From Demequina activiva (lineage in GTDB: Bacteria > Actinomycetota > Actinomycetes > Actinomycetales > Demequinaceae): a stretch of 64,000 nt of DNA. The stretch lies in contig NZ_BONR01000002.1 in the NCBI RefSeq assembly GCF_016862815.1, positions 310,001-374,000 on the forward strand, read 5' to 3'. The notes under the pieces are model-generated. The model saw only the letters and a program-made list of their open reading frames with translations. It had not been told where the DNA came from and searched no databases. The position numbers and the translations under genes were made by a program. Positions 6,719 through 52,021 of this stretch are shown one piece after another; within the stretch, counting starts at the first letter, position 1; each line of letters begins with the position of its first letter.

Positions 6719-7909
6719 ATGAAGACCATCGACAGCCTCGGAGACCTCACCGGCAAGAAGGTGCTGGTGCGCTCCGACCTCAACGTGCCGCTCGACGGCA
6801 CCACCATCACCGACGACGGCCGCGTGCGCGCCTCGGTCCCCACGATCCAGCGCCTCCTGGACGCCGGAGCGTCCGTGATCGTCACGGCGCACCTGGGCCG
6901 TCCGGGCGGCGAGCCCAATCCGGACTACTCGTTGGCACCGGCCGCCGCGCGGCTCGCGGAGCTGCTCGGCCAGCCCGTGACCCTGGCCGAGGACCTCGTG
7001 GGCCCCTCGGCCGAGGCGACGGTCGCGGCGCTCGAGCCCGCGCAGGTCGCGATGCTCGAGAACGTCCGCTTCGACGCTCGCGAGACCTCGAAGGACGATG
7101 CGGAGCGCGAGGCACTGGCGGACGCCCTCGCCGAGCTGGCGGACGCGTTCGTCTCCGACGGCTTCGGAGTGGTGCACCGCAAGCAGGCCTCCGTGTACGA
7201 CATCGCGAAGAAGCTGCCGTCCGCCGCGGGGCTGCTGGTCCAGAACGAGGTCGAGTCGCTGTCGCGCGCGACCACGGACCCCGAGCGTCCCTACGCCGTC
7301 GTGCTGGGCGGCTCCAAGGTGTCCGACAAGCTCGGCGTGATCGAGAACCTGCTGGGCAAGGCCGACCGGCTGCTGATCGGCGGCGGCATGGTGTTCACCT
7401 TCCTGGCCGCCAAGGGCCACGGGGTGGGCTCCTCGCTGCTCGAGGCGGACCAGATCGACAAGGTCAAGGGCTACCTGGCCACGGCCGAGGCCAACGGCGT
7501 CGAGATCATCCTCCCCGAGGACATCGAGGTCGCCTCGGCGTTCGCGGCCGATGCGGAGCACCGCACCGTGCCTGCCGCAGAGATCCCCGACGGCTGGATG
7601 GGTCTGGACATCGGTCCTGAGGCGGGCAAGGCCTTCGCCGCCGCGATCGCGGATGCGAAGACCATCGTCTGGAACGGCCCGATGGGCGTGTTCGAGTTCG
7701 AGGCGTTCGCCGGCGGCACCACCGCGGTGGCGCAGGCCATGATCGACTCGGACGGCTTCTCCGTCGTCGGCGGTGGCGACTCCGCCGCTGCGGTGCGGCG
7801 CTTGGGCTTCGACGAGGCCGGCTTCTCTCACATTTCCACGGGCGGCGGCGCGTCGCTCGAGCTGCTCGAGGGCAAGGTCCTGCCGGGCCTGGCCGTACTG
7901 GAGGACTGA
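6719..7909 (+). CDS. pgk: phosphoglycerate kinase
   Basis: Transfers phosphate from 1,3-bisphosphoglycerate to ADP in glycolysis. The 396-residue product shows the substrate-binding [11 protein letters not shown] near residue 17, a GRPGG loop near 60, the hinge and nucleotide-binding [11 protein letters not shown] near 197 and the C-terminal [13 protein letters not shown] around 350. Length fits the family. The ATG at 6719 gives the usual N-terminus ([18 protein letters not shown]). tpiA follows after 3 bp, so the two are certainly cotranscribed. Confidence 0.98.
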
Positions 7910-7912
7910 CAC

Positions 7913-8704
7913 ATGGCACGCACCCCCCTCATCGCAGGGAACTGGAAGCTCAACCTCGACCACCTCGAGGCCACCCACACCGTGCAGAAGCTCGCCTGGC
8001 TCCTGCGCGACGCCAAGCACGACTTCGACGACGTCGAGGTGGCGGTGCTGGCCTCGTTCACCTCGATTCGGTCCGTGCAGACGCTCGTGGATGCGGACCA
8101 GCTGGAGCTCAAGTACGGAGCGCAGGACATCTCCCAGCACGCGTCCGGTGCCTACACCGGAGAGGTCTCCGGCGCGCAGCTGTCGAAGCTGGGCGTGAGC
8201 TACGTCGCCGTGGGCCACTCCGAGCGCCGTGAGTACCACGGCGAGGGCGACGAGGTGGTCGCGGCGAAGACCAAGGCCGCGTTCGACTCGGGCATCGTGC
8301 CGATCGTGTGCGTGGGCGAGGGACTCGATGTGCGCAAGGCCGGCGATCAGGTCGAGTACACGCTTGCCCAGGTGGACGGCGCGCTCAAGGACCTCCCCGC
8401 CGACAAGGCCAAGGACGTCGTCATCGCGTACGAGCCCGTCTGGGCCATCGGCACGGGAGAGGTCGCGACGCCTGCAGATGCGCAGGAGGTCTGCGGCGCG
8501 ATCCGCGGCCGTCTCGCCGAGCTCTACGACGACGAGCTCGCCGCAGGCGTGCGCGTGCTCTATGGCGGGTCGGTGAAGTCCGGCTCGATCGCCCAGCTGA
8601 TGGCGGAGCCGGACGTCGACGGCGGCCTCGTGGGCGGTGCCAGCCTCGATCCCGAGGAGTTTGCGAAGATCGCCCGCTTCCGGTCTCACCAGGTGGGACT
8701 GTAA
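7913..8704 (+). CDS. tpiA: triosephosphate isomerase
   Basis: Interconverts dihydroxyacetone phosphate and glyceraldehyde-3-phosphate. The 263-residue TIM barrel has the substrate lysine motif GNWKLN at residue 9, the electrophilic histidine in VGHSERR near 102, the catalytic glutamate in [11 protein letters not shown] near 172 and the phosphate-binding YGGSVK near 220. It begins 3 bp after pgk and is followed by secG after 67 bp, an order widely conserved in Gram-positive bacteria. Confidence 0.98.
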
Positions 8705-8771
8705 CGGTCTCGCTGGAGGGCATCGTCGCGTATCCTGGTACCCGTTCGACCGCGATCCTAGAAGGAGCACT

Positions 8772-9017
8772 GTGAATTTCCTCGAGACCACGCTGTGGGT
8801 GCTGCTGGTGATCACCAGCTTCATGCTCATTGGCCTCGTCCTCATTCACCGAGGCAGGGGAGGCGGCATCACCGACATGTTCGGCGGTGGCTTCTCCTCG
8901 GGAGTGCAGTCCTCCGCAGTGGGTGAGCGCAACCTGACGCGCTTCACCTGGATCACGGCGATCGTGTGGGTGATGGTGATCGTGCTGCTCGGTCTCATCT
9001 CCCGCTTCGCTCTCTGA
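8772..9017 (+). CDS. secG: preprotein translocase subunit SecG
   Basis: 81-residue SecG, a small subunit of the SecYEG protein-export channel. It has an N-terminal membrane helix (residues about 4-24), a polar GRGGGITDMFGGG loop typical of the family and a second helix at the C-terminus (about 57-77). The GTG at 8772 has an AGAAGGAG ribosome-binding site 6 bp upstream, which decides the start; a longer in-frame reading into tpiA is not needed. Position after tpiA is classical. Confidence 0.95.
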   Translation: MNFLETTLWVLLVITSFMLIGLVLIHRGRGGGITDMFGGGFSSGVQSSAVGERNLTRFTWITAIVWVMVIVLLGLISRFAL

Positions 9018-9036
9018 GGGACAACGAGGGGGACAC

Positions 9037-9408
9037 ATGGCTGCAGGCAATGCGATCAGAGGCTCGCGCGTAGGCGCGGGCCCGCTGGGCGAGGACGAGC
9101 GCGGCGAGTCCGCGCCTCGCCAGACCGTCAACTACTACTGCGCGCGTGGTCACATCACGTCGCCGAGCTTCGCGCTCGGGGACGAGACCGACGCGCCGGA
9201 GATTCCGCTGGAGTGGGACTGCCCCAAGTGCGGCTTCCCGGCCGGGCTCGACGCGGAGAACCCGCCGGAGCCCATCCGCAACGAGCCGTACAAGACGCAC
9301 CTCGCGTATGTGAAGGAGCGTCGCTCGGACGAGGAGGGCCAGGCCCTGCTCGACGAGGCGCTCACCGAGCTGCGTGCGCGTCGCGAGTCCGTCTCCGTCG
9401 CCGACTGA
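9037..9408 (+). CDS. rbpA: RNA polymerase-binding protein RbpA
   Basis: RbpA is an actinobacteria-specific general transcription factor that binds the primary sigma factor and stabilises the open promoter complex. The 123-residue protein contains the N-terminal tail with GSRVGAGP, the core domain with YYCARGHITSPSFA near residue 31 and a zinc-type WDCPKCGFPAG near residue 63, then the basic linker and the C-terminal sigma-interaction helix (KTHLAYVKERRS). It starts 19 bp after secG and is followed by a strong terminator. A diagnostic actinobacterial marker. Confidence 0.96.
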   Translation: MAAGNAIRGSRVGAGPLGEDERGESAPRQTVNYYCARGHITSPSFALGDETDAPEIPLEWDCPKCGFPAGLDAENPPEPIRNEPYKTHLAYVKERRSDEEGQALLDEALTELRARRESVSVAD

Positions 9409-9423
9409 CTCCAGCACGCCGTC

Positions 9424-9461
9424 GTCAGGCCGCCGTCCCGGATCGGGGACGGCGGCCTGAC
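9424..9461. terminator. rho-independent-type hairpin after rbpA
   Basis: A perfect 16-bp inverted repeat (9424-9439 and 9446-9461) with a 6-nt loop begins 15 bp past the rbpA stop. The 3' side is not T-rich, as is common in high-GC genomes. It probably ends the gap/pgk-tpiA-secG-rbpA transcript. Confidence 0.8.
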
Positions 9462-9552
9462 GCGTCTGGGGGCAGGGGGAGGGGAATGGTCGCACGGGCG
9501 ATAGTGTCGTAGAAGGTGGGCACCTGGGCCCAGCGATGACACGAGGAGAGAC

Positions 9553-9777
9553 ATGCAGATCGAGATCGAGTACTGCGTTCCCTGCGGCTACCTGGACCGC
9601 GCCGTCGAGGCTCAGAAGACGCTGCTGAGCACCTTCGGTCAGAGCCTCGAGGGGGTCACGCTGAAGCCGGGCGAGAAGGGTGTCTTCACGTTCCGCGCCG
9701 GTGACGACGTGATCTACTCCAAGCCCGATGAGTACGACATCACCACGATCGTCGAGACGGTCAAGGCTCGTCTCTAG
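9553..9777 (+). CDS. SelT/SelW/SelH (Rdx) family redox protein
   Basis: 74-residue thioredoxin-fold protein of the SelW-like Rdx family, with the CxxC redox pair in YCVPCGYLDRA near residue 8 (Cys where eukaryotic SelW carries selenocysteine) and the usual beta-alpha-beta ending in YDITTIVETVKARL. It is likely cytosolic and thiol-based. Its substrate is unknown. It is monocistronic: rbpA's terminator lies upstream and pgl is convergent 24 bp downstream. A GAGGAGAG ribosome-binding site precedes the ATG. Confidence 0.88.
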   Translation: MQIEIEYCVPCGYLDRAVEAQKTLLSTFGQSLEGVTLKPGEKGVFTFRAGDDVIYSKPDEYDITTIVETVKARL

Positions 9778-9801
9778 TCCTCGCGCTCGTCGTCTCCGAG
9801 C

Positions 9802-10515
9802 TCAGATGCGCGTGGCCGCGGCGGCGTCGATGAGCCACAACGTCCGGTCGGTGCCGCGGACGGCCGAGCCGGGAAGGTCTGCGTCCCCATAGAGGCAGCC
9901 CGCGACCACGTCGGCCTTGGCGGCGCCTGCAGCCACCACCCACACCTCTGCGGCCCGGTTGATCGCCTCGAGAGTGAGCGAGACCCGTGTGGGCGGCGGC
10001 TTGGGGGAGTCGTGGACGGCGATCGCCGCGGCGCCGGCGGTCCGGTATCCCGCGTGGCCGGGGAACAGGCTTGCCACATGGCCGTCGGGACCGAGCCCGA
10101 GCATCAGCACGTCGAAGGCGGGGCTGCCGTTCGCTGCGATCTCAGTCGCATAGGACTCGGCGGCTGCCTCCGCGGACGCGAAGCCACTGGTCGAGCCCAT
10201 GCGATGGATGGTGTCCTCGGCGAGCGGGAGCCGCGACAGCAGCGCGCGCTGCGCCTGACCCTCGTTGCGGTCGGGGTCGCCGTCGGCCACGAAGCGCTCG
10301 TCGCCCCACCAGATGTGCACAGCCGTCCAGTCGATGCCTGCGGCGAGCGGCGACGCGGCTGCCGCCTCGAGCGTCGCGATCCCGACGGTCCCGCCGGTGA
10401 GGACGATGTCCGCTCGGCCGCGGTGAGCGAGCACGTCGCCGATGCGCACGAGCAGTCTCGCGGCCGTGGCCTGTGCGACGTCGTCGGGGTCTGCGTAGAC
10501 GATGACGTCCGGCAT
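9802..10515 (-). CDS. pgl: 6-phosphogluconolactonase
   Basis: Hydrolyses 6-phosphogluconolactone in the oxidative pentose-phosphate pathway. The 237-residue protein of the NagB/DevB fold has VLTGGTVGIATL near residue 36, WWGDERFVADGD near 68 and GLGPDGHVASLFPG near 128, all typical of the family. Last gene of the minus-strand operon tkt-zwf-opcA-pgl, 19 bp after opcA. The ATG at 10515 is preferred over one 9 bp upstream because the GGAG ribosome-binding site is correctly spaced for it. Confidence 0.95.
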   Translation of the reverse strand: MPDVIVYADPDDVAQATAARLLVRIGDVLAHRGRADIVLTGGTVGIATLEAAAASPLAAGIDWTAVHIWWGDERFVADGDPDRNEGQAQRALLSRLPLAEDTIHRMGSTSGFASAEAAAESYATEIAANGSPAFDVLMLGLGPDGHVASLFPGHAGYRTAGAAAIAVHDSPKPPPTRVSLTLEAINRAAEVWVVAAGAAKADVVAGCLYGDADLPGSAVRGTDRTLWLIDAAAATRI

Positions 10516-41971: not shown

Positions 41972-42586
41972 GTGTCCGTCGTCGATCCGCCCATCGCGGA
42001 GAAGCATGCGGTGTGGGAGGACGCGCTCGCACTCCCGTTCGGCGCGTTCCTCCTGTCCTTCGGGCTGTTCCTGCTGAGCGAGATCGGCGGGGTGTCCGGG
42101 GGACTGGCCGGCGTGGCGATCCTGGGCAGCTACTGGACAGGGTTCGGGTTCGGCGTCATCTTCTTCGTGGTCAACCTGCCCTTCTACTGGCTCGCGGTGC
42201 GGCGCATGGGCTGGGCGTTCACGCTCAAGACGCTCATCACGGTGTCACTGATCTCGCTGTTCACGGCGGTGCACGGTCTGTACCTGGATGTGAGCGAGAT
42301 CGCTCCGCTGTACGCCGTGATCTTCGCCGGGCTGGTCATCGGCGTGGGAATGCTGATGGTGTTCCGCCACGGCGCCTCCGCGGGCGGCTTCGGGATCCTC
42401 GCGGCCTACCTGCAGGAGCGCCACGGGATCCGAGCGGGGTACGTCCAGGGGGCGCTCGACCTGATCGTCGTGATCGCCTCGCTCGCACTGGTGCCGCTCG
42501 ACATCCTGGCCTACTCGATCGTGGGAGCGGTGCTGCTCAACCTGGTGCTCGCCATCAACCACCGGCCGGGCCGGTACTTCGGCTGA
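41972..42586 (+). CDS. YitT family integral membrane protein
   Basis: 204-residue protein with about five or six membrane helices and the GGVSGGLAGVAILGSYW signature near residue 35 of the YitT/DUF161 family, whose transported substrate is unknown. The GTG at 41972 has GGAGGT 7 bp upstream. GACAAT at 41926-41931 may be a -10 for it. It lies 47 bp before tRNA-Pro and is the last chromosomal gene before the integrated element. Confidence 0.85.
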   Translation: MSVVDPPIAEKHAVWEDALALPFGAFLLSFGLFLLSEIGGVSGGLAGVAILGSYWTGFGFGVIFFVVNLPFYWLAVRRMGWAFTLKTLITVSLISLFTAVHGLYLDVSEIAPLYAVIFAGLVIGVGMLMVFRHGASAGGFGILAAYLQERHGIRAGYVQGALDLIVVIASLALVPLDILAYSIVGAVLLNLVLAINHRPGRYFG

Positions 42587-42633
42587 TTCGTCACGCGCAC
42601 CCTCTGACATCCGATAGCATTGTCGGGCTGTCA

Positions 42634-42710
<77 letters not shown>

Positions 42711-42712
42711 GT

Positions 42713-42756
42713 AAACGCGCTGGTAGCGGTCAAACTGACCTGCTACCAGCGCGTTT
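42713..42756. terminator. bidirectional hairpin between tRNA-Pro and integrase
   Basis: Perfect 15-bp arms AAACGCGCTGGTAGC (42713-42727) and its complement (42742-42756), with inner bases GGTCA/TGACC extending the stem past one bulged T. It begins 3 bp after the tRNA CCA and ends 14 bp before the integrase stop, so it can end both transcripts. It belongs to the element, not the host. Confidence 0.85.
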
Positions 42757-42770
42757 CATCGTTAGGTGGA

Positions 42771-44033
42771 CTACTGCTCGTTGTGCACTCGTTGTGCAGT
42801 GCGTTCCCGGGGGACGAGAGCGGACGCACGTCCCGCCGCTTTTCGCGCAGCGTCTCCGATGAGGTGTGAGTACACGTCAGACGTGATGCCGATGCTGCTG
42901 TGCCCAAGACGCTTCGAGATGAGGGCGATGTCGGCACCAGACTCGATCAGCAGGCTTGCGTGCTCGTGTCGCAAGCCGTGGAACGTCATCTTCGGGAGCT
43001 GCGCACGATTGCGAATGCGATCGAAGAGGCGCGTCACATACTGCGGGAGAAGTGGATCGCCCGCCGGACTAGTGAACACATAGCCTGATGTGCTCCATGT
43101 CGCCCCCAGTGCGGTGCACTCGCTCTGCTGACGGAGCTGCCACTCCATGAGGCATCCGACGGCGGCCTCATCGAGGTCGACAATGCGGCGCCCAGATGTG
43201 GTCTTGGGCGACTGCTCGAGGACTCCGCGCTCGGTCTGGATTCGGGTGCGACGAACCTGAAGCTTGTACGAGGCAACGTCAACGTCCTCCCACCGCAGGC
43301 CAAGGAGTTCGCCGCGGCGGAGTCCGGTGAAGACGGCGAACTCAAACAGCGGGCCCAAACGGTCGGCTGCAGCTGAATCGAGAAATGCGCCGATCTGCGC
43401 GGGAGACCAGGGCTCAAAATCGTGACGGCCGACCGTTGGCAACTTCACGCCGCGCGCAGGGTTCGTAGAGATGAGGTCTTCGTGAACGGCAGCCGTGAGC
43501 GATCCCTGCACAACCGCGACGATCCTTCTGATCGTTGTGGCGCCACGTCCCGATGCTCCGAGATCATCGATGAACTGGCGGATGTGCGATCGTCTGATAT
43601 CCGTGACGCGCATTGCGCCAAGGGGCGAATCCTTGATGTCCTGATCGATGTAGCGCCGGTAGTTCTGCACTGTCGACGGCTTGAGATCCCCTCGCTGAAT
43701 GCGTGACGAAAGCCAATCGTCGAGCCAGGCGGCGAACCTCGTGCGACTGTTCTCGACATAGCTGCCACGGTCGTGATCGTGCTTCGCTGATGCAAATGCC
43801 TTGAGCGCAGCGGATCTCGTGTCGAAGTTGGCGCTACGCGTCTGGAGCCGGCGCCCTCGTGAGTCGAAGCCTCGTGAGAGGTAGAAGCCCCACTTGCCGT
43901 GTCTGCCGCCGCTCGTGTGCGCGGCGACGAGTGCAGGGCAAGCGCGCTGCAACTGTTGCGGCGAAGGGTGCTCGGGCAGATTTGCATACGCCCGCCCGTC
44001 GGCTGTGCGGCATGCGCAACGGCGATAGATCAT
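42771..44033 (-). CDS. int: tyrosine-type site-specific integrase
   Basis: 420-residue phage-type integrase that would insert the element at tRNA-Pro. An N-terminal AP2-like arm-binding region (FYLSRGFDSRGRRLQTRS) precedes a core-binding SAM-like domain (residues about 97-195) and the catalytic domain with Arg239 (TGLRRGE), His352 and Arg355 (HGLRHEH), His378 (GHSS) and Tyr388 (DVYSHL). All catalytic residues are present, so it looks functional. It lies immediately inside attL, transcribed toward the tRNA, and its start overlaps the upstream regulator by 4 bp. Confidence 0.96.
   Translation of the reverse strand: MIYRRCACRTADGRAYANLPEHPSPQQLQRACPALVAAHTSGGRHGKWGFYLSRGFDSRGRRLQTRSANFDTRSAALKAFASAKHDHDRGSYVENSRTRFAAWLDDWLSSRIQRGDLKPSTVQNYRRYIDQDIKDSPLGAMRVTDIRRSHIRQFIDDLGASGRGATTIRRIVAVVQGSLTAAVHEDLISTNPARGVKLPTVGRHDFEPWSPAQIGAFLDSAAADRLGPLFEFAVFTGLRRGELLGLRWEDVDVASYKLQVRRTRIQTERGVLEQSPKTTSGRRIVDLDEAAVGCLMEWQLRQQSECTALGATWSTSGYVFTSPAGDPLLPQYVTRLFDRIRNRAQLPKMTFHGLRHEHASLLIESGADIALISKRLGHSSIGITSDVYSHLIGDAARKAAGRASALVPRERTAQRVHNEQ
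42777..42798 (+). repeat. tandem 11-bp repeats, candidate integrase arm sites (left)
   Basis: Two direct copies of CTCGTTGTGCA (42777-42787, 42788-42798) lie within the last codons of the integrase gene, 70-90 bp from the core. The GTTGTGCA core reappears near attR at 51682-51702 in the same orientation. One-turn spacing suits integrase arm binding. Confidence 0.5.
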
Positions 44034-44599
44034 TGGTCGTCCTCTCGTGGTTCAAGGTTGAGTAGGCCCTCGTTTCGGCACCGCGCGGCCCAGCGGTTCG
44101 CAGTGGCGCGAGAGAGACCTAGTTCGCGTGCAGCAAGAGTCATGGCGGCGTCGGAGTAGGTACTGTGCTTGGTGTAGACCTCGGCAAACCTGGTCAGCTC
44201 TTCGTGAGTCGGGCCGCGTCGGCCGCGCTTGCTTGGCGCAGCGGACGCTTCGGCGTGGGACTCGACCCGCTCGGTCATACCTTCGAAACGGGCAAGTCCA
44301 GTCGGCCCGAGTGCGCCGACAGACCGGGGTGGGAGAGTGCCGCTCTCGCGCCACTGAATAGTGCGGATGATCTCTCCGGGTTTGATCGCTCTCAGCGCCT
44401 GGCCCGTGACTTCGTCGATGCCGTCTCCCATGACGAGGCCAGTGATGACGAGCTTCCCGTCACTCGACTTCGCGACGCGAACCAATAGGGAGCCCGCCGC
44501 TCCGGTTTCGTCGACAACCCTGTGCCAGTCGGCATCGTCGAGCGAGTCGAGGTTCAAGTTGGCTGGGGTCTGGACGTCCCAACGGGAGAAGTTCTGCAT
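44030..44599 (-). CDS. helix-turn-helix regulator next to integrase
   Basis: 189-residue protein not matching a well-known family. Residues 140-185 contain a predicted helix-turn-helix (TYSDAAMTLAARELGLSRAT then ANRWAARCRNEGLL), preceded by a basic linker SKRGRRGPTHEELTRF. The N-terminal 115 residues look like a separate, acidic globular domain. ATG 44599 is taken as the start; longer in-frame readings lack similarity and run through the promoter region. It overlaps int by 4 bp, so it may control integrase or the divergent early genes. Confidence 0.7.
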   Translation of the reverse strand: MQNFSRWDVQTPANLNLDSLDDADWHRVVDETGAAGSLLVRVAKSSDGKLVITGLVMGDGIDEVTGQALRAIKPGEIIRTIQWRESGTLPPRSVGALGPTGLARFEGMTERVESHAEASAAPSKRGRRGPTHEELTRFAEVYTKHSTYSDAAMTLAARELGLSRATANRWAARCRNEGLLNLEPREDDQ

Positions 44600-44697
44600 G
44601 CATAGAACGTACAAGGATGTAACCCAATGTGCAACATGCGTGCAGAACTGTGGCATAGGTACCGGCCCTGGTAGAATGCCTATTGACTTGGAGCATC

Positions 44698-44776
44698 GCG
44701 TCTCATTTCGCTGCAATAAGATGCAACATGAGACGCTAGCGCAGAAGTGTGCCGATACGTAACCTGACGCTATAAA
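44698..44776. promoter_or_regulatory. divergent control region of the element
   Basis: The spacer between the leftward regulator and rightward Xre genes (44600-44789) holds a 9-bp inverted repeat GCGTCTCAT/ATGAGACGC (44698-44706, 44728-44736). A TATAAA (44771-44776) about 13 bp before the Xre GTG is a good -10. GTGCA-containing repeats also occur at 44630-44640. This fits a lysogeny-type switch. Confidence 0.45.
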
Positions 44777-44789
44777 CATTCTTGATGAG

Positions 44790-45008
44790 GTGTCCGCGGA
44801 CCGGGCATTGCCGACCCCCTCCGTCTCTCGCGCGATTCGGCAATCGTGCGGACTGTCGCAGGCGCGAGTCGCACTAGAGCTTGGCGTGTCCCGAATGACT
44901 GTGAGTCGCTGGGAGCGGGGCGCGAGGCGCCCGCGTGGCCTGCGTCTAGTCGCATACACGGCACTGCTTTCGGATCTGGCAGCAGCAGCAAAGAGGGGCC
45001 CACAGTGA
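44790..45008 (+). CDS. Xre-type DNA-binding protein
   Basis: 72-residue protein with a Cro/C1 helix-turn-helix in AIRQSCGLSQARVALELGVS and RMTVSRWERGARRPRG (residues about 15-50). It is the first gene rightward from the control region and is likely a regulator of it. The GTG at 44790 follows TGATGAGG closely; the short leader makes the exact start uncertain. Stop and the next gene's GTG overlap (GTGA). Confidence 0.8.
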   Translation: MSADRALPTPSVSRAIRQSCGLSQARVALELGVSRMTVSRWERGARRPRGLRLVAYTALLSDLAAAAKRGPQ

Positions 45009-45202
45009 ACACCCAGCTTGAGGCTGCGCGGCTGACGTACACAGTTGAGGAGGCGGGGCGACTGCTCGGCATCGGGCGCGGCGCCGCGTATGCAGCTGTC
45101 CGCAGGGGAGAGATCCCCGTGATCGCCCTCGGCAAGAGGCTTGTCGTGCCGAAGGCGCCGCTCCTCCGAATGCTTGGTGCCGGCAGTGGCAGCGATGAGT
45201 AG
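45005..45202 (+). CDS. xis: excisionase / AlpA-like helix-turn-helix protein
   Basis: 65-residue winged-helix protein of the HTH_17 type: LTYTVEEAGRLLGIGRGAA near residue 10, then YAAVRRGEIPVIALGKRLVV and KAPLLRML. This is the classic excisionase/AlpA pattern. Expected to bend DNA at the attachment sites and direct excision, or to activate the rightward operon. GTG 45005 overlaps the xre stop; the 3' end overlaps the next gene by 8 bp. A longer in-frame upstream reading overlaps xre in another frame and is rejected. Confidence 0.82.
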   Translation: MNTQLEAARLTYTVEEAGRLLGIGRGAAYAAVRRGEIPVIALGKRLVVPKAPLLRMLGAGSGSDE

Positions 45203-45674
45203 CCGGTCAAGGTCGAACGACCCGGGACGAACTGGCGCGGCTGAGCCCGCCAAAGCGGGCCTTGGCACATGGGTGCGACGTCTCATGTGGGAATCCGACC
45301 TCGACCATCATGAACTCGTGGTCTATATCGCGCTTCTTACTCATCGCTCCGACGCGGGTGAGGCGTGGCCGTCTAGGACCACGCTTGCGCGGGAGTCGAA
45401 GGTGTCTCTTGACTCAGTGAAGCGAACGCTTCGGAAGCTCGAGGCGCGAGGGTTGATCGAGATCACTCGGCGCAAGAACGGGAAGCAGAACGCGTCGAAC
45501 CTCTACCGAGTCGATATCTACGACCCGGCACAGCATCACGCAAGCAAATCGCATGCGAATCTCAAAGCGCGCGAAGTCGGAGCAGGCAGCGCCTATCCGG
45601 GTGCAGTGGGCACTGAAGTAGGGTGCCCAGAGCACCAGGAACAGATAAGAGAACAGGTAATTGAACATGGTTAG
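45195..45674 (+). CDS. HTH_36 domain protein, possible replication/early protein
   Basis: 159-residue protein with a GntR/HTH_36-like winged helix: DLDHHELVVYIALLTHRS near residue 33, AWPSRTTLARESKVSLDSV near 55, then KRTLRKLEARGLIEITRR. Such proteins occur in actinophages and plasmids as replication-initiation or regulatory proteins. The C-terminal 60 residues are polar and unrecognised. It starts inside xis at ATG 45195, so xre-xis-HTH_36 form a coupled early operon. No helicase or polymerase is found nearby, so replication would rely on host factors. Confidence 0.72.
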   Translation: MSSRSRSNDPGRTGAAEPAKAGLGTWVRRLMWESDLDHHELVVYIALLTHRSDAGEAWPSRTTLARESKVSLDSVKRTLRKLEARGLIEITRRKNGKQNASNLYRVDIYDPAQHHASKSHANLKAREVGAGSAYPGAVGTEVGCPEHQEQIREQVIEHG

Positions 45675-45704
45675 GCGCGCCGCGACGCGGCGACGCCCGC
45701 CAGC

Positions 45705-46007
45705 ATGCAGGCCGGCAGGTCAAAGGCTCTCGATGCTGGGAGCACGTCGAACGTCGAGGCCGCCGACGCACAGCTGCAGTACCTGCGCGATCTCTTCCTC
45801 CATGAGCATTCGGTAACGCCGGGGAAGGCTCGGATTGATGCATGGCGCTCTCACTCCGTCAGCTCTGCCTCCGTGGAGATCTCGGATCGGCTGAGGACAG
45901 TGCGCCGCGGTTCGGACTACCGCGGACCCTGGCCCACTGACACTGCATACGGCGAGCTCTCACAGTCCGGCCGGGATTGGGCTGACAAGGCATTGGTGCC
46001 CGAGTAG
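45705..46007 (+). CDS. hypothetical protein
   Basis: 100-residue protein of no recognised family. It contains DAQLQYLRDLFLHEHSVTPG, mildly helical, and no obvious motifs, membrane segments or cysteines. It lies 30 bp after the HTH_36 gene in the same direction and 264 bp before the RES gene. The codon pattern is plausible but the ORF is short, so it may not be expressed. The spacer 46008-46271 holds only a weakly convincing in-frame extension of the RES gene. Confidence 0.4.
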   Translation: MQAGRSKALDAGSTSNVEAADAQLQYLRDLFLHEHSVTPGKARIDAWRSHSVSSASVEISDRLRTVRRGSDYRGPWPTDTAYGELSQSGRDWADKALVPE

Positions 46008-46271
46008 GACAAGAGCGCTCCCGTGGCTGCCGTCTGGTCGCGTGAAGACTTCGTGGGCAACCCATGGAGCAGAAAGCATCGAAAGCCTGCGGCCGGGGTC
46101 TGCGTCACGTTCGTCGGCCGAGGCGAGCATCTTGGAACAACGACGTCTCAGAAAGTGCGTGGAGACCAAGACGGCGCAGACTTGTTTCCTGTCTACGAGG
46201 CGCGGCGCGTAGCCACGACTGAATGCGCGGAAATGCGTGAAGACCCCGCGTGGGTCCGGGATGATTGCTTC

Positions 46272-47519
46272 ATGGGATTGGCCAAGCGCATGTGGATGGA
46301 ACAAGAGGCGCAGGGCTGGTCTTACTCTGACAAGTACGTGTGTGCTGGGTGCGTCGACGATGAGGTTCTACAAGCCGCAGTTGCAGGAGCCGTTGAAGAC
46401 GGGGAGAAGTGTTCGTTCTGTGGTGCTGCCGGAGCCGCGTCCCTCGACGTACTGACAGAGGCATTCGTGGTTGGTATCGGGCACTACTACGGGGACCCTG
46501 ACGCCGAATTGGTCCCTTGGGAGAGCCGCGAAGGGGGCTACCAGGTCGCCACGTACTCCACTGGCGAGCTAATGATGGATTTTGGTGACGTGCTCACCGG
46601 TCCCGGCGTACTAGACGCAGTTGAAGAGGCGATTGGCGATCGTGACTGGGTAGAAGCGCTGTGGATGGAGTCCAAGAGGGACGCGGCACTTGAATCCGCG
46701 TGGGATCGCTTCCGCCATGCAGTCATGCATGAGACACGGTTCATCTATTGGCTGGCTGATGGAGATGACGAGTCGTGGCTTGGAGCGGGAGACATCCCCG
46801 CAAGTCGTTTCCTCCATCACTTCGCGCAGATGGTTGTCGACCACGATCTCATTGTTGAGTTTGCTCCGGGAGAAGCCTTCCATCGAGCGCAAATCCATTC
46901 GGGTCCGGCAATTGACGGCGGTGCTACTGCATACCGTCTCGGAACCGCTCCGTACGAGCTGTCGATGCGTCCGAACCGCATGAACCCTGCAGGTATCCCG
47001 ATGTTCTACGGTGCTCTTGAGCCAGAGACCGCAATCGCAGAGGTCTCGGCGCACACGCCAGGTAGCGGCGACCACGTCACCGTTGGCACGTTCGTCGCGA
47101 GCGAAAGGATTGATGTCGTCGACCTGACTCGGCTCCCCGTGCTGCCATCAGTCTTCGACCCCGAACGAGGTGGCGACGTGCGGCGAGAAATCCAGTTCAT
47201 GCACTCCTTCGTAAAGGAGTTGCAGCGACCGTCAGGTGAGCTGACCGCTGCGGTCGACTATGTGCCCACCCAGGTCGTCACTGAGTTCATTCTCCGTGCG
47301 CTTCATAGAGTCGTCGAGGGAGTGCGACAGCTCAGCGGTGTCATCTATCCATCCGTGGCCTTAGTCGGAGGACGAGCGTTGGTGCTCGACGTCGACAATT
47401 CCCGTTGCGTCGATGAATTGGGCAAAGACCCGGAAGTAGCTCCTCGGTTCGGGCCGACGCCCGACAGGTTGCGGCTGGTACTCGCCAAGGACTCGGTCAA
47501 GACACGCCCGCTCCGATAG
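46272..47519 (+). CDS. HEPN-like/RES domain protein, candidate NAD-degrading toxin
   Basis: 415-residue protein with an N-terminal zinc module (CAGC near residue 24, CSFC near 46) as found in HEPN-associated RES proteins, a middle domain around residues 70-190 and a C-terminal RES domain. RES hallmarks are FHRAQIH near 202, RMNPAGIPMFYGALEPETA then IAEV near 235 with conserved Arg, Tyr and Glu, and GVIYPSV near 355. RES toxins degrade NAD+. No Xre antitoxin adjoins it. It starts at ATG 46272, where family similarity begins; a GTG at 46023 would add 83 residues without it. Confidence 0.8.
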   Translation: MGLAKRMWMEQEAQGWSYSDKYVCAGCVDDEVLQAAVAGAVEDGEKCSFCGAAGAASLDVLTEAFVVGIGHYYGDPDAELVPWESREGGYQVATYSTGELMMDFGDVLTGPGVLDAVEEAIGDRDWVEALWMESKRDAALESAWDRFRHAVMHETRFIYWLADGDDESWLGAGDIPASRFLHHFAQMVVDHDLIVEFAPGEAFHRAQIHSGPAIDGGATAYRLGTAPYELSMRPNRMNPAGIPMFYGALEPETAIAEVSAHTPGSGDHVTVGTFVASERIDVVDLTRLPVLPSVFDPERGGDVRREIQFMHSFVKELQRPSGELTAAVDYVPTQVVTEFILRALHRVVEGVRQLSGVIYPSVALVGGRALVLDVDNSRCVDELGKDPEVAPRFGPTPDRLRLVLAKDSVKTRPLR

Positions 47520-47618
47520 GCGCTGCCCAGTCAATCTCCTGTCGGCTCAAAGCGCACATTGCTCAGACGCCTGTGGCTTGCGTGCACAGCGTCTGCACAA
47601 TGTCTCGTAAAACGTCTG

Positions 47619-48290
47619 CTAAATGACTGTGCGACTTGATTGACTGTCAAGCGGTCGAGAGCGCGTTCCAGATTGCAGCGCGGCCTTCGCATCGGTGCCG
47701 CACACGCAGCGGCACTTGCGAGCGGAAGCCGCGACTGAAGCGCCAGTTTGGCGGGCCGAGGCACGAGCCAGCTGCAATCCTCCGGTCAACGCTTCTCGCA
47801 TCGTGGCGTCGGGCGCGTGGCGGTAGCGCCATCGTTGCCAACGTGACGGATGGTATGGATGCTCGCCAAGCATCCACGTCGGCGTACCGCGTGTCACGAG
47901 GTGGTCAATCAGCCAAGAGACTTGGCTTCGGTGATGCAGCCGCGCTGCGCCACTGGGTTCGGTCTTGCCGTACGCGAGCAGCGCGCCGGACGCATGCGCG
48001 AGCGCATCTTCGAGCTCGATGCGCGCATCTTCCCACCCGTGTGCGCTGGCGCCGACCGCGGTAATCTCTCCACTACTTCTCGTTGCGATTCCAAAGATGT
48101 TTGCGACAGATAGTGATTCGTACCCAAGAACCTCCTTGGCCAGATCGAGTCGCGCGAGAGTCCGTGCGCCGCTGGTCAAGGGTGGGTTGCACAGCACTGC
48201 GACGAGGTTTCCTCTGGCGACGTGGGTGCGCGTCATCGCTCGATCCATTTCGCAAGAGTACGCGCCACGAGAATGCGGAATGTGACTCAT
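47619..48290 (-). CDS. DUF1643-like protein, divergent from the restriction controller
   Basis: Up to 223 residues. The core (about 28-150) resembles DUF1643: VAVLCNPPLTSGARTLARLD, then AKEVLGYESLSVANIFGIAT and a DDL-like HGWEDARIELEDAL, ending in HPYHPSRW. The function is unknown, and members occur in phages and mobile elements. ATG 48290 overlaps the C-box of the divergent controller; internal starts at 48248 and 48236 are possible and would leave the operator in its leader. The C-terminal 60 residues are basic and unconserved. Convergent with the RES gene, 99 bp apart. Confidence 0.6.
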   Translation of the reverse strand: MSHIPHSRGAYSCEMDRAMTRTHVARGNLVAVLCNPPLTSGARTLARLDLAKEVLGYESLSVANIFGIATRSSGEITAVGASAHGWEDARIELEDALAHASGALLAYGKTEPSGAARLHHRSQVSWLIDHLVTRGTPTWMLGEHPYHPSRWQRWRYRHAPDATMREALTGGLQLARASARQTGASVAASARKCRCVCGTDAKAALQSGTRSRPLDSQSSRTVI

Positions 48291-48309
48291 AGTCTGTGGA
48301 CTGATAGGC
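48284..48309. promoter_or_regulatory. C-box operator of the restriction controller
   Basis: The sequence reads GACT-CAT-AGTC-TGTG, then GACT-GAT-AGGC. The left half is a perfect GACT-N3-AGTC site, the right half differs by one base, and the GTG spacer is present. This is the layout of C-boxes bound by controller proteins of PvuII-type systems. It ends 11 bp before the controller ATG and covers the ATG of the divergent DUF1643-like ORF. Confidence 0.82.
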
Positions 48310-48320
48310 GTCAGTCTTCG

Positions 48321-48557
48321 ATGCTGAGGCCCGTGAACGCGACTGGAAGACAACTGCTGGCCGCTGCAATGCGGCGTGAACGCGAGGCCCTACAGATCTC
48401 GCAGGAGGCCCTGGCCCACAGGGCCGGCCTGCATCGGACCTACGTGTCGCAGGTGGAGCGGTGCACCCGGAACGTGGGCATCGACAACATCGAGAGGATT
48501 GCCGGAGCTCTCGACATAAGCATTGCGGAACTTTTCGACCGGGCGGCCGACGAATGA
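48321..48557 (+). CDS. restriction-modification controller (C) protein, Xre family
   Basis: 78-residue helix-turn-helix protein. QISQEALAHRAGLHRTYVS and QVERCTRNVGIDNIERIAGA, with ALDISIAELF, follow the C-protein pattern (GLHRTYVS recognition helix, RN then NIE). Controllers of this kind bind C-boxes as paired dimers, first activating and then repressing their own operon so that nuclease appears after methylation. A C-box lies directly upstream and the HNH gene overlaps its stop by 4 bp. The start may be ATG 48321 or GTG 48333. Confidence 0.86.
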   Translation: MLRPVNATGRQLLAAAMRREREALQISQEALAHRAGLHRTYVSQVERCTRNVGIDNIERIAGALDISIAELFDRAADE

Positions 48558-49207
48558 GCGACGCCATGGCTGGTGCGGCGGCAGGAGATGAGCAGCAGAC
48601 CCAGGCTGAAGTCGACTTCTTCGAATCGTCGCCGCTTGCGGACATGGACTGGGCAGAAGGCGACTGGGAGCAGATGCTCGTGTACCTGGTCGAGTCTGGT
48701 CTTGTGACCTACCAGGAGGTGGCCGCTTTGGTGCTGGGGCACCTAAACCCGTCGCAGGTCGGCACTTCGATCGCTTCCAAGAAGACATTTCAGGCGCATT
48801 ATCCGCCTCGCAAGACGATGCAGGCCGTGCTCGCTTGGCACATCAACCAGGAAGGTGTCTGCGTCGACTGCGGGACGAGGCTCGAACTCCAGGCTGACCA
48901 CGTGGAGACCCGTGAGGAATACGGCGATGCCGCGGATCGACTTGAGAACATGACTCTCCGCTGTCGGCGGTGCAACGTCATCCGTAGGCCGTCGCACGCG
49001 AACGGTGGCAAGACCTTTCTCACGACGGAATCGGCGCTGATGTGGATTCTCCTTGTGAAGCGGCCGGGGACCTACCTGGAGTACGAGAGGCTCTGCCGCA
49101 ACTACGGGTTGACGATGGCGAATATTCGCTTCAAGGAGGCCTGGGCCATGGCCCACTGGCTCCAGCGTGTCGGTCTCTACACCATCGACGACTCGTCTAC
49201 TTTCTAG
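48554..49207 (+). CDS. HNH endonuclease, candidate restriction enzyme
   Basis: 217-residue protein. The HNH core at about residues 102-150 has CVDCGTRLELQADHVETREE, then LENMTLRCRRCNVIRR: two CxxC zinc pairs around the His-x-x-x-Asn frame, with DH as the catalytic start. The N-terminal 90 residues are acidic (MDWAEGDWEQ) and unrecognised; the C-terminal 55 may bind DNA. It is cotranscribed with the controller and convergent with the methyltransferase, with only 3 bp between stops. It is proposed as the cognate type II nuclease. Recognition site unknown. Confidence 0.78.
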   Translation: MSDAMAGAAAGDEQQTQAEVDFFESSPLADMDWAEGDWEQMLVYLVESGLVTYQEVAALVLGHLNPSQVGTSIASKKTFQAHYPPRKTMQAVLAWHINQEGVCVDCGTRLELQADHVETREEYGDAADRLENMTLRCRRCNVIRRPSHANGGKTFLTTESALMWILLVKRPGTYLEYERLCRNYGLTMANIRFKEAWAMAHWLQRVGLYTIDDSSTF

Positions 49208-49210
49208 ACA

Positions 49211-51538
49211 CTAGTCGAATAGAGGCAGCATCGAGTCTTCGCGAGCGATGAAGTCCTCGGTCATCTTTGTGCAGAGTTGTGCGTATGCCGGATCTCTTTC
49301 GATCATCACTGACCGCATTCCGGCCCGATGAGCCGCCCGCGCCGTTGTGCCCGAGCCGCCGTACGGATCGAGAACCAACGAACCCTTTGCGAGACCGCTA
49401 AGCAAGAGTGAGACGAGGTCGAGGGGATAGGGGGCGGTGTGCCCGTATGTGTTTTGTCCTCGCACCATCTTGATGACGGGTTGGATTCGTGTCACTGATG
49501 CGACTATATCCGCTGGAATTGCCAGCTCAGAGTCCAGCGTCTCCGGGCCGGGTGCCTTGCGGAGTAGCAGCACGTGTTCCCAGCAGTTGAACGGCGACTG
49601 GTAGAACGGCGAGAAGTTCCCGGCATTGAACCCGCGCTTGCCCTGAATCTCGCCCTTGTCCCACGGAATGACACCGACGAGCTCAAAGCCGATCCGTAAG
49701 AATGCGTCTGTCACTAGCGATGCCAGAGCGATGCGCTTCTTGCCCATGTCGGAGAAGACGACCGTGCGCTCGTTGTCGAAGTAGTCAAAGATGTTGTAGG
49801 CGTAGATGCCGCCCGGCTTGAGCACGCGGTGCACCTCGCGTGCGTTCTCGGCCATGTCGTACAAATAGGCATAGAGGTTCGGCCACTGCGAGTACTCGCG
49901 GGCATTGAAGTACGGGGGAGAAGTAACCGCCCGATCAAATGTCTCGGTCGGAATCGACTTCAACACCTCGTTTGAGTCGCCGTGGATTGTGGTGAATCGT
50001 GTGGGAGCGACGACACGCTGGGGCAATCCAGAACGCTCCGGCAGAGGTTCGTGGAGCTCGGTCGCTCGATACCGATGGAAGAACGCGGAATCCCAAAAAT
50101 CCGTCCGAGCGTGAACCCGCGCGAGGCTTTCGAAGCTGGTGCGGCGTCCCAAGTCGGCAACGCCGAGACGCTCGGGGGCGTTGATGACGGCGATACCGTC
50201 CCCCCACATCGAATAATGCGTGACAAGCGTCTCAACGATCTCCTGGTCGCTCTCAAACTCAAGGACATCGCGCTGCCACCTACGCACGCTGGCGACCGAG
50301 ACCCTGCTCTGGGGGTCCTCAATTGCGGCTTGGCTGATGACGGACTTGAACTGGAACCGTCGCCCGCGGTTGTAGATGCTTCGCGCCGGGCACAAGAGGT
50401 TCTGGCATTCCCAGCTCTTCACGCCAAGCGTGGGGTAGGAGTTCCCCTCAACGTGGGTGCTTCTGCAATCGGGGCACGGGATGGTCGTTTCGTCACGAAG
50501 GTTCTTCTGCATTACCAGGACGAGTCTGATCACCACCCCAGCGGGATCCGTCAGCACGAAGAGGTCGCGATAAGTAAAGCCTTCATTGAGGATGCCGAAG
50601 TCAGCACTCTCCTCGTTGAGACCCGGTATGTGCGCTGTTGTCTCCCGGGCCACCTCTTTGCTGCGGAAGAACATCTGGCGGAGGCGGGTCTCTTTGAAGC
50701 GCTCCGCGTATAGCATCGCGTCGTGAGCGGTTGCCCAAGCCGGTCCAGGATGTGCCGGGTCGACCTCGAGTACAGCAGCGATGAACCCGTGGTTATTGAG
50801 TCGCTGGTACTCGTCCGCGAGCCAGGCAGACAGCGCCGATCTGGTCTTGCTCACTTCGAGGACTTCCGCGGTGGCCACGAACCTCACGGAGAGTGTCCTC
50901 TCACGCTCGAAGAGTTCCGGCGAGCGTGCACGGAGGAACGATAGGTAGTCAGCCGTCGTGTCGCCCGCCCCTCCACTCCCGAAAGCCGCGTAAAGAGACT
51001 CGGCCGGCCACAGAGCCCACGCTAGAGGTCCGGCGCACGAACCCATGACATCGGCGGTGACACTTCGGTCGAGCGCCTTGCGAAGCTTCGAGGGCTTGTG
51101 GGCCTCGTCCGCAAGAGCCTGCCGTGTTTCTGACGAGGTGGCGGGCTCGACCCCATTAAGTAGTGCACGGGCGCTCGCCGCGCTTACGCCCATCTCTTCA
51201 AGTGCTTTGGCGCATAGGTCCATGCGCGCCGAGTCAATGCATGACGAGAGACGCGACTTCTGGTGGTAATTGAAGGTGATGTCTTTGGCCGCCGCCCGCG
51301 TGTAGAGCGTCGCGAGTTGCGCACGGTTGACGCCGAGTTTCCTGTTGACCGTGCGGTAGAAGCGCGTCGCGAGCTCGCTCGGCGAGTCGATGGACGCGGG
51401 CCCAAGGGTAGCCAGAAGCGTCCGAAGCGCGTCAGAAGTGTCGCCAGGGAGATCTCCGCGAAGGCCAGTTAGCTCGCGCAGGAGCTGTTGGAAGGCATCG
51501 ACCGTCTCGACAACCTCTTGACTGGCGCTGGCAATCAT
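49211..51538 (-). CDS. DNA methyltransferase, beta class (probable N4-cytosine or N6-adenine)
   Basis: 775-residue amino-methyltransferase. Motif IV TSPPYFNAREYSQWPNLYAY near residue 537 precedes motif I LDPYGGSGTTARAAHRAGM near 723, the beta-class order IV-then-I. SPPY favours N4-cytosine but does not exclude adenine. Unusually, about 500 N-terminal residues precede motif IV, including a four-cysteine ribbon (CPDC near 353, CQNLLCPA near 375). ATG 51538 has GAGGAG 8 bp upstream and lies downstream of a TACAAT -10, so it is preferred to ATG 51634. It should protect the element and host from the HNH nuclease. Confidence 0.88.
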   Translation of the reverse strand: MIASASQEVVETVDAFQQLLRELTGLRGDLPGDTSDALRTLLATLGPASIDSPSELATRFYRTVNRKLGVNRAQLATLYTRAAAKDITFNYHQKSRLSSCIDSARMDLCAKALEEMGVSAASARALLNGVEPATSSETRQALADEAHKPSKLRKALDRSVTADVMGSCAGPLAWALWPAESLYAAFGSGGAGDTTADYLSFLRARSPELFERERTLSVRFVATAEVLEVSKTRSALSAWLADEYQRLNNHGFIAAVLEVDPAHPGPAWATAHDAMLYAERFKETRLRQMFFRSKEVARETTAHIPGLNEESADFGILNEGFTYRDLFVLTDPAGVVIRLVLVMQKNLRDETTIPCPDCRSTHVEGNSYPTLGVKSWECQNLLCPARSIYNRGRRFQFKSVISQAAIEDPQSRVSVASVRRWQRDVLEFESDQEIVETLVTHYSMWGDGIAVINAPERLGVADLGRRTSFESLARVHARTDFWDSAFFHRYRATELHEPLPERSGLPQRVVAPTRFTTIHGDSNEVLKSIPTETFDRAVTSPPYFNAREYSQWPNLYAYLYDMAENAREVHRVLKPGGIYAYNIFDYFDNERTVVFSDMGKKRIALASLVTDAFLRIGFELVGVIPWDKGEIQGKRGFNAGNFSPFYQSPFNCWEHVLLLRKAPGPETLDSELAIPADIVASVTRIQPVIKMVRGQNTYGHTAPYPLDLVSLLLSGLAKGSLVLDPYGGSGTTARAAHRAGMRSVMIERDPAYAQLCTKMTEDFIAREDSMLPLFD

Positions 51539-51557
51539 CTGGACTTCTCCTCGCGCC

Positions 51558-51601
51558 GTCAGGGATGTTGCGCGGTTTGCATTGTAGACGCGGTCCCTGA
51601 C
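51558..51601 (-). promoter_or_regulatory. methyltransferase promoter with flanking inverted repeat
   Basis: A minus-strand -10 TACAAT at 51586-51581 lies between perfect 8-bp arms GTCAGGGA (51558-51565) and TCCCTGAC (51594-51601). The arms flank the -10 and the expected transcription start, suiting autoregulation or another repressor. The -35 is weak. Confidence 0.5.
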
Positions 51602-51681
51602 GCTGACCGTTGGCCGGTCGATGCTTGTGGACACTCAGCCAGGTTGGCCCTTGCGGTGCGCAGCGTGGGTATAGCTGGCGT

Positions 51682-51702
51682 GATTGTGCAAACTGTTGTG
51701 CA
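51682..51702 (+). repeat. candidate integrase arm sites (right)
   Basis: GATTGTGCA (51682-51690) and TGTTGTGCA (51694-51702) are spaced 12 bp and share the GTTGTGCA core of the left-arm tandem repeats. They lie about 120 bp inside attR. The stretch 51602-51819 otherwise shows no convincing gene. Confidence 0.45.
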
Positions 51703-51819
51703 CACTGCGGACCATGGGATGGCACTCGACGACACGAGCGCCGTCAGACCCCATCGCCCTCGAGCATGCTTGGGCAAGAACTGCTACTAGGCGATATGGG
51801 ATGGCACGCGGGTTCGTTC

Positions 51820-51863
51820 ACTGGGGGTCAAGGGGTCGCAGGTTCAAATCCTGTCAGCCCGAC
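51820..51863 (+). repeat. attR: orphan 44-bp tRNA-Pro 3' fragment
   Basis: Perfect copy of 42665-42708 covering the anticodon loop through the acceptor 3' strand, without the 5' half and with CCA replaced by CGG. It marks the right end of the element. Confidence 0.95.
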
Positions 51864-51869
51864 GGTTCA

Positions 51870-51905
51870 GAGCCGTCTGCCTGGGGAGACCCAGGTGGGC
51901 GGCTC
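51870..51905 (+). terminator. hairpin after attR, probable original tRNA-Pro terminator
   Basis: Nested arms GAGCCG...CGGCTC (51870-51875, 51900-51905) and CCTGGG...CCCAGG with a GAGA loop, followed by TTTCGTT. It lies 7 bp past attR and would have ended the tRNA transcript before integration. Confidence 0.75.
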
Positions 51906-52021
51906 TTTCGTTGCTGCGGCCGGGCCGTCGGGACGATGGCTGCTCTCGCTGTGCCACGCGAAGGATCGCGGGTGCCACGGACAACCGGAGCGAGCCTGAG
52001 AACCGCGCCGTCCATCCCGTC

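Follow-up and report, generated by a model that had tools for sequence, protein, structure and literature searches.

A probable controller-regulated Type II restriction-modification system with a candidate HNH nuclease in a tRNA-Pro integrative element of Demequina activiva

Overview of the locus

The DNA analysed here is a 64,000-nucleotide stretch (hereafter the window) of the 2.47-Mb, seven-contig genome of Demequina activiva (contig NZ_BONR01000002.1, positions 310,001 to 374,000). Window positions 48284-51538 contain a cassette consisting of a C-protein operator, a controller (C) gene, an HNH nuclease gene and a convergent beta-class DNA methyltransferase gene, with all three reading frames intact. 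Inspection of the sequence alone had suggested a complete candidate Type II restriction-modification (R-M) system here (the original prediction), and this observation holds and its reading is largely right: the cassette is very likely a controller-regulated Type II R-M system carried as cargo by a 9.15-kb integrative element at a tRNA-Pro gene. Its components are:

48284..48309, + strand: C-protein operator, comprising OL (GACTCATAGTC, 48284-48294), the spacer TGTG and OR (GACTGATAGGC, 48299-48309)
48333..48557, + strand: controller gene, Xre/HTH_3 type; GTG start by comparison with Blastococcus, alternative ATG at 48321
48554..49207, + strand: candidate restriction endonuclease, 217 residues, HNH core at residues 103-142 (Pfam HNH, 5.7e-5)
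49211..51538, - strand: beta-class DNA methyltransferase, 775 residues (Pfam N6_N4_Mtase, 1.5e-18; PADLOC MTase_II PDLC03236, 4.9e-85)

As the original prediction described, the controller stop and the HNH start overlap by 4 bp (ATGA, 48554-48557), and 3 bp separate the HNH stop (ending at 49207) from the stop codon of the convergent methyltransferase gene (beginning at 49211). Nuclease and methyltransferase are encoded by separate, linked genes, as in Type II R-M systems.

Operator and controller

The operator reads GACTcatAGTC-tgtg-GACTgatAGgC, one mismatch in 16 positions relative to GACTn3AGTCn4GACTn3AGTC; the perfect half-site and one-mismatch partner claimed at the outset are both present. 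Paired GACT-N3-AGTC operators with a central GT upstream of a C gene are the form of the C.PvuII/Esp1396I class, as given in excerpts of PMC3115060. The next-best operator-like sites in the 64 kb carry four mismatches, and in 100 first-order Markov sequences (10 kb each, modelled on 42001-52000) no site had fewer than three mismatches, a level reached in 3 of them, with four as the best in 38. The intact OL and altered OR half are as expected for a strong OL and a weak OR. At the equivalent place in Blastococcus atacamensis (locus L013, described below) lies a weaker box, ATGTGACTCATcGTCTGTaGAC, with four mismatches in 16; the GAC/GTC bases of OL are intact on both sides in both organisms, and OR, with one altered base in the window, is more degraded in Blastococcus. 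A perfect GACTGTGAGTC half-site also occurs at 44897-44907, within the element's other Xre gene (44790-45008), and may be due to chance.

Translation of the controller is likelier to start at GTG 48333 than at ATG 48321, because this GTG lies 23 nt past the box, the same distance as the Blastococcus GTG. Read from ATG 48321, the protein matches the PADLOC model Control_protein PDLC03665 (1.9e-22) and, among solved structures, C.BclI (3e-12), C.AhdI (2.4e-9) and C.Esp1396I (3clc, 1.8e-6); it is a small Xre protein related to C proteins, with the predicted recognition helix GLHRTYVS.

The comparison with Esp1396I covers controller, operator and gene order. In Esp1396I the C and R genes form one operon convergent with M (excerpts of PMC4041747); in the window the adjoining C and R genes are likewise convergent with M. 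The Esp1396I OL oligonucleotide begins ATGTGACTTATAGTC, of which the GAC bases alone are specifically contacted (excerpts of PMC3758141), and window positions 48280-48294 (ATGTGACTCATAGTC) agree with 14 of its first 15 bases. In the consulted parts of PMC4041747, R35, T36 and R46 are the base-binding residues of C.Esp1396I, and T36, Y37, R46 and S52 were tested. Four of these five contacts are kept, R35, T36, Y37 and R46 corresponding to R39, T40, Y41 and R50 of the window controller, with S52 the exception (mapping from the structure-match alignment; on our reading its chain numbering is shifted by 3). Operator and contact residues alike support the PvuII/Esp1396I comparison made from the sequence.

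Divergent from the controller gene is a DUF1643-like frame (47619-48353, - strand; 0.0018, below the cut-off), with one in-frame ATG inside the C-box and others just past it. Since these ATGs lie in or just beyond the box, the controller could also act on this gene. In Blastococcus no DUF1643-like gene adjoins the controller.

Conservation of the nuclease-methyltransferase pair

Relatives were sought in 84,980 species' genomes with the methyltransferase alignment as query. There were 40 pattern matches, and 17 loci were obtained. As close relatives we take the six most similar of these (L012-L017, 51-69% identity in the catalytic part); they come from two phyla (Streptomyces, Blastococcus, Duganella, a betaproteobacterial metagenome-assembled genome (MAG), Salinicola and an Alcanivorax MAG). 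Loci with best-segment identity below 50% were set apart (L018-L028 from the genome scan, among them L025, which ends within the methyltransferase, and L029-L035 from a viral scan), as was the plasmid locus L011 (41%).

A full-length HNH homologue adjoins the methyltransferase in five of the six close relatives (L013-L017; E 2e-108 to 2e-73). The two genes are directly convergent in L013-L015 and divergent in L016 and L017, where an 84-residue Xre gene stands alone between them; with three convergent and two divergent arrangements, the linkage is not simple synteny. In the sixth, L012, the contig breaks off 107 bp past the methyltransferase; there the opposite strand encodes AEGAYTVDPSSRY-stop, resembling the HNH C-terminus EGLYEIDPESTF of L013, a 13-residue likeness that is slight evidence; a search of the loci's genomes did not find the remainder of this gene. 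Over the six taxa, the identity tables of nucleases and methyltransferases are correlated (r 0.68), with a value as high in 25 of 720 permutations.

Blastococcus atacamensis L013 is closest in organisation, with the same gene order, 4-bp overlap and box position, and identities of 76% (HNH), 52% (methyltransferase) and 47% (C). It differs in a serine-recombinase-like gene (recognised by eye) before the methyltransferase. Beyond its controller lies a PDDEXK_13 (1.1e-49)/REase-ARP nuclease gene (7774-8733, - strand), unlike the window's neighbours.

Searches led by the HNH protein returned, at E 1e-3, its own genome alone among 47 genomes of the family, and among 396 of the phylum its own genome plus eight partial matches to the HNH core (none longer than 75 residues, E 5e-6 to 1e-3) and no other full-length homologue; we read the eight as generic HNH proteins, their neighbours not having been inspected. 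At E 1e-10, searches of 294 genomes around L014, 112 around L013 and 201 around L016 matched the query genomes only. The 17 genomes of the loci held the same five homologues only. The HNH family is rare and was not seen away from this methyltransferase among about a thousand genomes, a small part of known species. The methyltransferase itself had no other match in the 396 phylum genomes at E 1e-30.

In IMG/VR, no locus was confirmed with the HNH protein, the HNH alignment or the methyltransferase alone; the methyltransferase catalytic alignment found the seven distant loci L029-L035, and in L035 a frame of 99 residues matches HNH very weakly (E 0.0026, 13 bits). Among plasmids, the window HNH protein had one partial match (Tsukamurella, residues 103-180, E 7e-4; neighbours not inspected), and the L014 and L016 HNH proteins had none. 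Phages yielded no match to the window HNH protein (E 1e-3), the L014 HNH protein or the methyltransferase (E 1e-20).

The HNH nuclease

Seven residues are invariant in all six full HNH proteins (C103, C106, D115, H116, N132, C137 and N141), giving the DH...N...N core of HNH enzymes with three invariant zinc cysteines (C103, C106, C137); the fourth zinc position is histidine in L014 and L015, which also have an insertion within the core. The homologues in L016 (2899-4128) and L017 (2889-4052) carry an additional C-terminal domain of about 150 residues.

An HNH-type catalytic core with cysteine pairs is a likeness to KpnI, PacI and Hpy99I (excerpts of PMC4081073), from which the window protein differs in having no significant sequence match to a solved structure (best E 0.34). 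It matched no Type II restriction enzyme in PADLOC, and the nuclease belongs to a family without a restriction-enzyme model in that database; across the six members there are weak matches to PtuB (best 0.0032), to PDC models and to one Type IV enzyme model (0.038). No description of the family was found among the literature titles and abstract openings retrieved.

The original prediction had proposed that the HNH protein is the cognate nuclease of the methyltransferase. The full-length homologues in five of six relatives and the HNH-like C-terminus in the sixth give this independent support, and within the samples searched we saw nothing of the arrangement that would have spoken against it, HNH homologues always lacking a methyltransferase. 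The HNH gene product is very probably the cognate nuclease.

The methyltransferase and its putative zinc module

Features of the methyltransferase gene are:

51581..51586, - strand: TACAAT, a -10-like hexamer without a full promoter match (sequence; no promoter in the scan)
51547..51552, - strand: GAGGAG, ribosome-binding-like (sequence), 8 nt before ATG 51538
50249..50506, - strand: zinc module, residues 345-430, candidate relocated target-recognition domain (module profile and alignment)
49910..49924, - strand: motif IV, TSPPY, residues 539-543 (invariant in 12 of 12)
49343..49369, - strand: motif I, DPYGGSGTT, residues 724-732 (variable at several positions across the 12)

The most likely start is ATG 51538 behind GAGGAG; the open frame extends to GTG 51634. 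In beta-class enzymes motif IV precedes motif I and the target-recognition domain lies between them. The window enzyme is assigned to this class, as predicted, because TSPPY precedes DPYGGSGTT. A model built from 12 sequences has a mean pLDDT (predicted local distance difference test) of 80. The fold comparison matches almost only residues 512-768 and is uninformative on the remainder of the protein; within it, residues 514-768 resemble TTHA0409 (Z 23.4, root-mean-square deviation 2.5, 208 aligned), CcrM (22.4) and M.PvuII (20.0). An SPPY motif is often that of an N4-cytosine enzyme; N4-cytosine and N6-adenine enzymes both occur among the structural neighbours.

Residues 345-430 form a cysteine-rich module conserved in all 12 long enzymes compared, with zinc binding presumed from the cysteines. 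In the window enzyme it stands before motif IV, and about 180 residues separate motifs IV and I. The module profile also finds shorter enzymes in archaea (L024, L027) and Bacteroidetes (L026) (E 3e-26 to 8e-25), as well as the viral contig L030 (2e-23). In the alignment of L024, L026 and L027 the module follows motif IV and precedes motif I, and in L030 coordinates only give the same placement. Because it holds the target-recognition position in L024, L026 and L027, the arrangement suggests that the module is a target-recognition domain that moved within the methyltransferase.

Apparent exchange of nuclease partners and controllers

More distant methyltransferase relatives stand beside other nucleases. 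Those of the Staphylococcus saprophyticus plasmid locus L011 and Jeotgalicoccus L019 are convergent with BstXI-family (PF09552) nuclease genes, a likeness to the window, whose methyltransferase is 41% identical in the catalytic part; the difference lies in the nuclease profile, which is unrelated to the window HNH family (no PF09552 match for the window protein; hhalign probability 0.1 percent). In L018, L020-L022 and a second unit of L019, the neighbours are 373-385-residue proteins, 17-21% identical to the L011 nuclease, with an RE_BstXI match below the cut-off in L021 and L022 only; no profile relation links this BstXI-like group to the HNH family. L019 (4471-10303) holds two tandem R-M units. 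The second methyltransferase is split over two frames (8023-8625, 8779-9048), and opposite each methyltransferase lies a nuclease gene of its own: one of PF09552 (6781-7956) and one lacking any Pfam match (9158-10303). Proteins near L024 and L027 may be PD-(D/E)XK nucleases (L024, Pfam 0.017, below the cut-off; L027, by eye), and L028 (25% identical, missed by the zinc-module profile) adjoins a CfrBI-family nuclease gene.

The BstXI site CCAN6TGG was considered as the specificity and dropped because M.BstXI proper is a gamma enzyme and Type I-like (PMC4335341; Type I-like also in excerpts of PMC3874165). This pattern occurs 20 times in the window (15.4 expected; 12 of 100 shuffles as high) and 1099 times on the forward strand of the genome, versus 484 for a backwards control pattern; all 20 window sites fall outside the element, a post hoc count of little power.

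The controllers vary too. The Xre proteins of L014, L015 and L017 share only 16-22% identity with the actinobacterial controllers and are without the R-T-Y contacts, and that of L016 is a sister of the L017 protein. No comparable GACT box lies upstream of the proteobacterial Xre genes (L014-L017); each of the four is preceded by one copy of CGATTTTGGCATATT, found at no other distinct locus among 52, and in L016/L017 this 15-base motif stands as ATATGC-GATTTTG-GCATAT. Because these Xre proteins differ and have another upstream motif and no GACT box, it seems that the controller was replaced along with its probable operator while the nuclease/methyltransferase pair stayed the same.

Tentatively, and with somewhat less than even confidence, we propose a three-way modular R-M lineage, in which the zinc module would be a portable target-recognition unit moved before motif IV, while nuclease partners (the new HNH family, BstXI-like and PD-(D/E)XK-like) and controller/operator cassettes were exchanged.

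The integrative element

The element is delimited by:

42634..42710, + strand: tRNA-Pro(GGG), attachment gene; 47 bp of its 3' part (42662-42708) form the left direct repeat
42771..44033, - strand: tyrosine integrase (Pfam Phage_integrase, 4.9e-25), located after tRNA-Pro
51817..51863, + strand: right direct repeat, 47 bp, 98% (repeat comparison)

The right repeat differs from the tRNA 3' part at a single position over 47 bp. G+C per kb is about 0.58-0.64 inside the repeats and 0.66-0.74 outside. Two congeners (G396, G410) lack the element at this tRNA and have an intact tRNA-Pro followed by the right flank; the match is unbroken for G396 and falls into two pieces for G410. The repeats, integrase, G+C dip and element-free congener tRNA sites together place the R-M locus inside the 9.15-kb element. 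On the left, the direct match in both congeners is limited to about 26 bp ahead of the tRNA, the remaining left flank lying about 1.25 kb off (L043 of G396, about 2009-3269; L042 of G410, about 1992-3241; about 10 bp in the window); this difference is another gain or loss on the other side of the same tRNA.

The element also encodes a toxin-like protein (46023-47519, + strand), a fusion of HEPN/RES N-terminal domain 1 (3.1e-26) with a RES domain (2.3e-14), which may represent a second defence gene.

Proposed function and alternative explanations

In a controller-regulated Type II system of this kind, the convergent methyltransferase gene would be expressed without the controller after entry and the host sites marked. 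The controller, at a low level, would bind the strong OL and activate both its own gene and the nuclease gene that overlaps it; at a higher level it would also fill the weaker OR and shut the promoter down. The HNH protein would then cut incoming unmarked DNA at the sites that it is expected to share with the methyltransferase.

Several observations weigh against this reading. The Pfam HNH score is weak though above the cut-off (23.6 versus 21.4 bits), four of the six family members alone match Pfam HNH at E 0.1, and the predicted HNH structure (six sequences), by which the beta-beta-alpha metal fold of HNH nucleases was to be judged, is poor (pLDDT 49). S52 of C.Esp1396I is replaced by N56. 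Esp1396I has OM (excerpts of PMC4041747), whereas none of the five C-box half-sites with at most one mismatch in the element lies by the methyltransferase gene, which leaves the circuit without its counterpart. The linkage sample comes from a methyltransferase-led scan using two short peptide patterns. A scan of 48100-51900 found no sigma-70-type promoter for any gene (shuffles, mean 0.8); the TACAAT promoter originally ascribed to the methyltransferase is supported only as a -10-like hexamer. Terminators numbered one versus 2.9 in shuffles, so that promoter and terminator counts both fall below shuffles.

The empty promoter scan would suit a real R-M system, retained as element cargo, that has fallen silent or decayed in the present host. 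We consider this unlikely, given three intact frames and invariant residues kept in six of six HNH proteins and in 12 of 12 methyltransferases at motif IV. Less probable still is a solitary or regulatory methyltransferase, with the HNH gene an unrelated mobile or homing-type nuclease adjoining by chance. The cargo of integrative elements is often mixed, and the HNH core has weak partial similarity to generic HNH proteins and to the IscB and PtuB models; chance adjacency is at odds with a linkage that recurs in five of six relatives, in two phyla and both gene orders, and with the lack of full-length HNH homologues elsewhere in the 396, 47, 294, 112 and 201 genomes searched, query genomes included. 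That controller and HNH gene form a toxin-antitoxin-like pair, the methyltransferase serving something else, is very improbable: Xre regulators do serve such pairs, and TIGR03070 matches at 34.4 bits (cut-off 71.65), but the best controller models are R-M control proteins, the operator has the C-protein form, and it is the Xre gene that is exchanged, methyltransferase and HNH gene remaining together.

Significance

Read as a controller-regulated R-M system, the locus offers a candidate, open to testing, for a new HNH restriction-enzyme family. It appears to offer a natural case of controller-and-operator exchange around a single nuclease/methyltransferase pair, and a candidate specificity module with a changed position inside the methyltransferase. 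If the zinc module does set the target, its two positions would make it possible to investigate how the specificity of methyltransferases is put together and altered.

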